This document shows, one piece after another, positions 16,071 to 53,843 of a stretch of DNA of 64,000 nucleotides (positions are counted from its first letter, which is position 1; each line of letters begins with the position of its first letter). The stretch is from Pseudomonas fluorescens. GTDB lineage: Bacteria > Pseudomonadota > Gammaproteobacteria > Pseudomonadales > Pseudomonadaceae. A program made the translations under genes and the position numbers. Below the pieces are notes generated by a model. The model worked only from the letters and a program-made list of their open reading frames with translations. It searched no databases and was not told the origin of the DNA. The stretch is from contig NZ_MRST01000026.1 of the NCBI RefSeq assembly GCF_001902145.1, positions 688,095 through 752,094 on the forward strand. The letters are read 5' to 3'.

Positions 16071-16170
16071 TGTAGGAGCGAGCTTGCTCGCGAGAAACGC
16101 TAACGATAACGCGTGCTTGCTGAATAAACGCGGCGTCTGTGAGTTTTTCGCGAGCAAGCTCGCTCCTACA
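16071..16170. repeat. REPIN, GTAGGAGCGAGCTTGCTCGCGA type
   Basis: 100-bp inverted REP pair whose spacer contains AACGATAACGCG, shared with the copies at 34757, 45731 and 53744. Located between two convergent genes. Confidence 0.92.
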
Positions 16171-34686: not shown

Positions 34687-34723
34687 CAGGCAACACAAAA
34701 CCCCTGTGGGAGCGGGCTTGCCC

Positions 34724-34881
34724 CTAATGCCGTTCAGTTAAGCGTATATCGCCCTCTGTAGGAGCGAGCTTGCTCGCGAAAAACGTCAACGATAACGCGT
34801 GTTTCCTGATTGAACGCGGCGCCTGTGAGTTTTTCGCGAGCAAGCTCGCTCCTACAAAAAGCCTTAACTGAACGGCATTAG
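34724..34881. mobile_element. 158-bp MITE-like element carrying an internal REPIN
   Basis: Perfect 19-bp terminal inverted repeats, CTAATGCCGTTCAGTTAAG at 34724-34742 and its reverse complement at 34863-34881. It is flanked by the direct repeat GGCTTGCCC (34715-34723 and 34882-34890), a 9-bp target duplication. It has no coding capacity. It would need a transposase elsewhere, possibly of an IS4-like family given the 9-bp duplication. Confidence 0.82.
34757..34856. repeat. REPIN inside the MITE-like element
   Basis: 100-bp inverted REP pair of the GTAGGAGCGAGCTTGCTCGCGA type with the spacer AACGTCAACGATAACGCG. It is nearly identical in the arms and left spacer to the copies at 16071, 45731 and 53744. 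Confidence 0.92.
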
Positions 34882-34960
34882 GGCTTGCCCGCGATAGCGT
34901 TGGCTCAGTCGATACCGCTATCGCAGGCAAGCCAGCTCCCACATTGACCGAGTCGGGCTT

Positions 34961-45730: not shown

Positions 45731-45831
45731 TGTAGGAGCGAGCTTGCTCGCGAAGAACGCATAGACGACGCGGGCTGCCTGACAGCACAGCGTTATCGTT
45801 GACGTTCTTCGCGAGCAAGCTCGCTCCTACA
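45731..45831. repeat. REPIN overlapping the kinB stop codon
   Basis: GTAGGAGCGAGCTTGCTCGCGA-type inverted pair. Its right end supplies CTA at 45827-45829, which is the TAG stop of kinB on the minus strand. Confidence 0.92.
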
Positions 45832-53743: not shown

Positions 53744-53843
53744 TGTAGGAGCGAGCTTGCTCGCGAAAAACGTCAACGATAACGCGGGGCTTCAGACTCC
53801 CCAAGGCGGTCTCAGGTTTTTCGCGAGCAAGCTCGCTCCTACA
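53744..53843. repeat. REPIN, GTAGGAGCGAGCTTGCTCGCGA type
   Basis: 100-bp inverted pair with the spacer AACGTCAACGATAACGCG shared with the copies at 16071, 34757 and 45731. It lies between the convergent SpmAB and MCE-operon genes. No further REP element is seen from here to the end of the window. Confidence 0.92.

Follow-up and report, generated by a model that had tools for sequence, protein, structure and literature searches.

A putative IS4-group MITE carrying a REPIN interrupts a second REPIN in Pseudomonas fluorescens

The 158-bp insert described here is very probably a non-autonomous IS4-group transposon that carries a REPIN and was moved in trans into the centre of a palindrome. It lies in a 64-kb window, the whole stretch of 64,000 nucleotides of the P. 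fluorescens genome that we analyzed, and its sequence places it in a genus-wide family with the REP arm as a regular target, which goes beyond what the initial annotation had claimed. In the mechanism we propose, an IS4-family transposase acting in trans would recognize the MITE ends AATGCC..TCAGTTAAG and insert the element into the middle of palindromic DNA, with a duplication of 10-12 bp. The palindrome hit in the host genome is nearly always a GTGGG-type REP arm; REP arms and terminator-like hairpins are frequent targets in other species. The REPIN would be brought along as cargo. At the window locus the GTGGG REPIN came first, and the MITE with its GTAGG REPIN then split the left arm, probably recently.

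The element and the REPIN that it interrupts

The features of the locus are as follows, with positions of the window.

34705..34943, no strand: GTGGG-type REPIN split by the element (72 bp when rejoined), recognized by its inverted arms and its match to relative G197
34714..34723 (34715-34723 in the 9-bp reading), plus strand: left target duplication GGGCTTGCCC, from flank comparison
34724..34881 (34725-34880 in the 10-bp reading, with 34724 as an extra C), no strand: putative IS4-type MITE of 158 bp
34724..34742, plus strand: left terminal inverted repeat CTAATGCCGTTCAGTTAAG, a near-match to the E. coli IS4 ends
34757..34856, no strand: internal REPIN of GTAGG type, two 28-bp arms with 44 nt between them, recognized by its inverted arms; the same REP class also lies beside the RAYT gene L290
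34863..34881, minus strand: right terminal inverted repeat, the complement of the left repeat
34881..34890 (34882-34890 in the 9-bp reading), plus strand: right target duplication GGGCTTGCCC, from flank comparison
34891..34943, plus strand: remainder of the target REPIN (rest of the first arm, loop and second arm)

As the initial annotation had described, the segment is bounded by perfect 19-bp terminal inverted repeats (34724-34742 and 34863-34881, 100% complementary), and no match with up to 3 mismatches arose when the window was shuffled 100 times. At 158 bp it thus has the short size and the terminal repeats of a MITE. Its interior has the form of a REPIN, two inverted REP arms with GTRG heads over about 100 bp; the arms at 34757-34784 and 34829-34856 are 28 bp each, 100% complementary and of the GTAGG type. 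The outer arms of the target are 94% complementary and of the GTGGG type, so both class assignments proposed earlier were correct. The sole open reading frame of at least 60 aa over the element (34724-34942, minus strand, 72 aa) starts outside it and spans the repeats. Rfam returned just microRNA-hairpin matches for the element, far under the gathering score, which we take as chance. Elsewhere in the window, further pairs of GTAGG heads at 16071-16170, 45731-45831 and 53744-53843 (ends approximate) resemble free-standing REPINs.

The proposed 9-bp target duplication, GGCTTGCCC at 34715-34723 and 34882-34890, holds if the ends of the element are drawn at CTAATG/CATTAG. Other copies show 10 bp of flank identity (for example GGGCTTGCCC, GGGCAAGCCC and TGGCTTGCCT) and ends at YAATG/CATTR. 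Read in this way, the window copy has GGGCTTGCCC at 34714-34723 and 34881-34890 and begins with TAATG from 34725, and 34724 is one extra C.

Removing the insert together with one duplication leaves a 72-bp REPIN, which includes the proper REP arm that excision had been expected to rebuild. We compared the orthologous interval at 29 loci of relatives (L261-L289), out of 198 genomes with a match. The empty site is present in one of them: relative G197 (L263) has an uninterrupted REPIN with a single decamer at the orthologous place, and 67 of the 72 positions are identical to it. L267 and L271 also have an uninterrupted REPIN there, at lower similarity. By eye, an intact element was seen at none of the 29 orthologous intervals, one of which (L264) contains a GTAGG REPIN plus an apparent remnant of a MITE end. 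As the orthologous REPIN in G197 is uninterrupted, with the GTGGG-type pair intact, the alignment is most simply read as a GTGGG REPIN that predates the insertion. Of the datable order of two mobile repeat systems that had been suggested, the order of events is shown by the sequence; the dating goes no further than a relative one.

Copies in the host genome

The host genome (5.97 Mb in 27 contigs) contains 46 matches to the terminal repeat with up to 3 mismatches, compared with 3 for a reversed-pattern control. We read 29 host regions, 26 covering terminal-repeat matches and 3 found by similarity to the element. This census is a lower bound, with 40 candidates scored and the repeat search limited to 3 mismatches. 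It yielded at least 17 complete copies with a GTAGG REPIN at no fewer than 14 loci, four of the copies lying in one tandem array. The further copies that the initial annotation had called for therefore exist.

At 14 of 14 loci the insertion lies at the identical point of a GTGGG-type REP arm, centred on GGCTTGCC or GGCAAGCC. Some of the target REPs are degenerate (the tandem array and L031), and one copy (L034) has its left decamer in one form and its right decamer in the other. The window contains 18 decamers of the target kind, including the 2 that are the duplication itself; at this density, about 3 in 10,000 random insertions would fall on such a point. Over the full 158 bp, two host copies in different flanks (G000:C4:147322-147479 and G000:C21:397351-397508) match the window copy exactly, and two more differ from it by 2 and 3 bases. 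These identical and near-identical copies suggest that some of the movement was recent; older subfamilies share about 90% identity with the window copy. One complete element (L019) has a GTGGG REPIN inside and a target that is not a REP. Truncated copies lie partly in REPs, and several lie outside them. In two of the regions read, L021 and L025, at different loci, an identical piece of the right terminal repeat is missing up to the junction.

Since the targets are near-identical repeats, an assembly artefact, or homologous exchange or gene conversion between REPs, might have produced this distribution in place of transposition. The flipped decamers of some copies fit such a history. So does the array at G000:C11:206303-207355 (L017), where four REP-flanked MITE copies, REPIN included, follow one another as direct repeats with a 298-bp period and indicate that recombination or amplification acts on composites. 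However, the REP-located copies share their junction and differ in their outer flanks, the empty site is present in a relative, and elements of other species lie in unrelated terminator-like sites with 10-12-bp duplications. We consider exchange or misassembly extremely improbable as the origin of the copies and rejected it.

REPINs are thought to spread within a genome via one domesticated transposase, RAYT. The host has two RAYT genes, L290 beside GTAGG REPs and L291 beside GTGGG REPs, both matching NF047646 'REP-associated tyrosine transposase' (162.6 bits for L290, cutoff 80), so a cognate RAYT is adjoined by REPs of the class found inside the element. Conceivably, this machinery itself was the mover and RAYT copied the REPIN with its flanks, the terminal repeats being an outer extension of the hairpin. 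Folded as a single strand, the whole region indeed forms one long nested hairpin (-92.2 kcal/mol, z -15.56), and the 1322 GTAGG arms of the host genome (up to 3 mismatches; control 0) imply that most host REPINs spread without a MITE. But TTAAG lies 2-18 bases upstream of just 56 exact arms, part of them by chance. Most REPINs are thus without these flanks, and a few percent of the host GTAGG REPINs would be MITE-borne. The complete copies moreover have 10-bp target duplications and IS4 ends, neither of which RAYT movement is known to create, and the listed elements of Herbaspirillum, Collimonas and Cupriavidus with the same ends have no REP pair. We therefore rejected movement by RAYT as highly improbable and retain transposition by an IS4-type enzyme as the preferred reading.

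IS4-type ends and a putative transposase

An IS with matching ends, the second item that the initial annotation had proposed to look for, was found in relatives and in E. coli. The domain PF13006 (Nterm_IS4) is present in 18 of 199 genus genomes and, among 14 control genomes, solely in E. coli. Seventeen of 30 PF13006 loci were used for targets (8 with MITE-type ends and 9 of a sister type); the 13 left out are fragments, shortened copies and copies with a single clear end, and in 5 of the 13 one end is of the MITE type. Both ends are within 2 mismatches of AATGCCAGTCAGTTAAG at 8 of the 30 loci. Exact 10-12-bp duplications flank 6 of these 8 IS copies. Judged by eye, each of the 8 occupies a terminator-like site with runs of A and T; none lies in a REP, so that we infer REP targeting by the IS4-type transposase from the MITEs. 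Duplications of 10-12 bp at palindromes are common to these IS copies and the MITEs.

Against NF033592 'IS4 family transposase', the L043 transposase scores 270.9 bits (cutoff 115); over its length it shares 56% identity with E. coli proteins that carry an IS4 annotation. An IS4 annotated on an E. coli plasmid has the ends AATGCCGATCAGTTAAG and AATGCCAGTCAGTTAAG, from which the 17-base core of the window repeat differs at 1 of 17 positions (left end) and 2 of 17 (right end). E. coli IS4 (IS4 family, IS4 group; the insG element) and the Pseudomonas IS4-group elements share the termini AATGCC..TCAGTTAAG. IS4-family target duplications are about 10-13 bp long; those of the PF13006 IS copies measure 10-13 bp and those in the REP targets of this genome 10 bp. 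On the match of its ends to IS4, we assign the 158-bp element to the IS4-group MITEs. It differs from IS4 in having no transposase gene, in its length (158 bp compared with about 1.42 kb for L300) and in the REPIN inside.

The host genome gave no PF01609 or PF13006 match and, in a protein search run without a positive control, no L043-like match, hence no mover is known to be present there now. Every one of the 46 host matches to the terminal repeat is more than 15 kb away from the nearest contig end, which gives no hint of a collapsed IS with these ends. The suggestion that a REPIN can hitchhike inside a transposase-dependent element is accordingly upheld for the carriage, with complete copies at 14 loci; the dependence on a transposase is one we infer, as the searches of the host genome revealed no IS4-type transposase.

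The sister IS4-group IS, with ends AATGCTGTTCACTTAAG, occurs at 9 loci (L035, L039, L041, L046, L047, L054, L055, L057 and L061). It likewise lies in terminator-like sites and has exact 11-13-bp duplications at 6 of the 9. In P. palleroniana G158, terminal-repeat matches 87-192 bases from the start of contigs C4, C5, C38, C43, C51, C63 and C69 look as if a longer element bounded by these ends had been collapsed in assembly. That the MITE might be a solo palindromic IS4 end with a central REPIN was also considered; the idea was dropped, as the full TCAGTTAAG is present in the left repeat of the MITE but missing from the left half of the IS-end palindrome.

Targets and REPIN cargo across species, and relation to known systems

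The sequence AATGCCNNTCAGTTAAG is present in 86 of 199 genus genomes, compared with a single match (in G014) for the reversed control. A scan restricted to exact ends and interiors of 101-161 bases gave at least 117 stretches; 80 matches were listed and all of these were examined. Seventy of them come from 37 Pseudomonas genomes; no two of these 70 have the same flanks, and 64 different interiors occur among them; the other 10 are from Herbaspirillum, Massilia, Collimonas, Cupriavidus and three gammaproteobacterial bins or symbionts.

Among the 80 listed elements, 46 have an exact 8-12-bp duplication, in most cases of 10-12 bp; it is absent in 34, two of them with masked flank bases. By simple pattern rules, the targets of the 70 Pseudomonas elements divide into 34 REPs, 16 terminator-like hairpins and 20 of neither kind, and those of the 10 elements from other taxa into 2 terminator-like hairpins and 8 of neither kind. 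The 34 elements that lack an exact duplication and the 28 of 80 listed targets that fit neither rule count against the main reading. Perfect stems of at least 5 bp surround the insertion point in 35 of the 80 listed elements, compared with 65 of 1600 random positions, which suggests that the target is often, by this stem measure not always, the centre of a palindrome. With such base-precise entry into REP arms and terminator-like hairpins, the element may alter transcript ends.

The decamers on the two sides of REP-target copies differ in their central dinucleotide in 1 of 13 host copies, in 4 of 17 copies from a picked set (40 regions chosen by eye among the matches listed, two ends in 38) and in 5 of 27 copies from the scanned set of matches listed. 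One such element is common to the picked and scanned sets, and the window copy was left out of this scoring because of its extra C. In L034, L130, L132 and others, an AA decamer stands on one side and a TT decamer on the other, with outer stems that fit one REP. These differences would be explained most simply by REP conversion or by recombination among the copies.

A REP pair is present in 66 of the 70 listed Pseudomonas elements, and the other 4 have a single REP motif. Random windows of the same length at the same loci gave 6 pairs and 153 singles in 3500, and chance nesting of a REPIN in a MITE was rejected on this comparison. The pairs belong to the classes GTGGGAG (31), GTGGCGAG (17), GTAGGAG (16) and GTAGCAG (2). 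In the listed elements from other taxa there is no pair (0 of 10) and one single motif (1 of 10). L146, L147, L168, L170, L176, L188 and L195, from Herbaspirillum, Massilia, Collimonas and Cupriavidus, have IS4-type ends without REP motifs. Inverted repeats of at least 12 bp occur in 72 of the 80 listed interiors, compared with 0 of 80 letter-shuffled ones. In the 199 genomes, eight short elements with interiors of 8-68 bases were found, each showing a REP head on visual inspection. None of the Pseudomonas elements examined (interiors of 8-68 and 101-161 bases) was free of REP sequence.

The spacers between the ends and the REPIN fall into several unrelated families. Several REP classes together with unrelated spacer families do not fit one capture and suggest several separate captures of REPINs by MITEs, whether through insertion or through recombination. 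Similarity between spacers from different classes exceeded all 100 shuffles in 53 of 1423 pairs, compared with about 14 expected by chance; the convincing pairs (z 5.1-7.1) are confined to those that join P. fildesensis or BCA17 to P. palleroniana, and L189 to L182. In P. palleroniana, REPINs with two kinds of loop occur in MITEs whose spacers resemble each other. These similarities suggest that REPIN cargo is exchanged inside MITE backbones, a picture that in-place divergence of the arms would equally give.

The cargo might also be a by-product of frequent intergenic REPIN insertion, for which the 1322 GTAGG arms of the host speak, or one old capture inherited since. The MITE-borne REPINs were compared with the free REPINs of their hosts, which were few, in 11 species-by-class comparisons: the closer match was a MITE-borne REPIN of another species in 8 and a free one in 2, and 1 was a tie. 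This would fit inheritance with the MITE. We nevertheless think either origin unlikely, as pairs are present in 66 of 70 listed elements and 6 of 3500 random windows, several REP classes and unrelated spacer families are involved, and the only 8 short elements in 199 genomes all have a REP head by eye.

Beyond the single insertion, IS4-type MITEs and REPINs of Pseudomonas may form a lasting partnership, with nearly every MITE loaded, several REP classes entered or exchanged, and delivery into REPs and terminators. We put this forward tentatively, at a little less than an even chance. As MITE cargo, a REPIN would have a route of dispersal besides its own RAYT. If the partnership is real, REPINs would be able to spread by a DDE transposase, independently of RAYT, and might also enter genomes without a matching RAYT. 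Such a second-transposase vehicle in many species would alter models of REPIN spread and persistence.

MITEs, REPINs and REP targets are each known already, and the element is not categorically new. REPINs and RAYTs are known systems (Bertels and Rainey 2011, PMC3116915; PMC2817692), and the window interior is likewise a REPIN, of the class beside the host RAYT L290. The accessible portion of PMC3116915, however, describes no REPIN enclosed by IS4-type ends and a target duplication. ISs that target REPs have been described, among them ISRm22 of S. meliloti, a member of the IS4 family (Tobes and Pareja 2006, PMC1525189). Insertion at the REP symmetry axis is thus shared with the window MITE and the IS4 family was already tied to REPs; as far as that source was available, its elements are ISs, whereas the window case is a MITE carrying a REPIN of another class. 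REP dimers within outer palindromes of fixed sequence, as in the window MITE, are known from A. variabilis and H. neapolitanus (PMC3733652), but those hosts are not Pseudomonas and the sections consulted assign the palindromes to no IS family. P. syringae has the MITEs MITEPsy1 and MITEPsy2, one of them shown to transpose (PMC3189936). They too are Pseudomonas MITEs; unlike the window element, they have ends like those of ISPsy2 and ISPsy30, not IS4, and, in the available text, no REPIN cargo.

A whole-word search of the main text of the MITE review PMC10969869 gave 0 matches for REPIN or IS4 (plurals would be missed), and the accessible parts of PMC3390384, PMC4596501 and PMC8266576 contain nothing of the kind. 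In the open-licence literature, judged by titles, the starts of abstracts and the texts cited here, we found no report of an IS4-type MITE carrying a REPIN. The combination and the genus-wide rule therefore appear new as far as these searches go, in a comparison that lay apart from R178 and the other P. fluorescens repeat families catalogued in PMC2718517.

Compared with plasmids, the element had no place covering 80% of its length, and the best places cover the REPIN part. On the P. aeruginosa plasmid NZ_CP131786.1, positions 317660-317713 (H11) correspond to bases 3-56 of the element, including the terminal repeat, with an 81.8% match.
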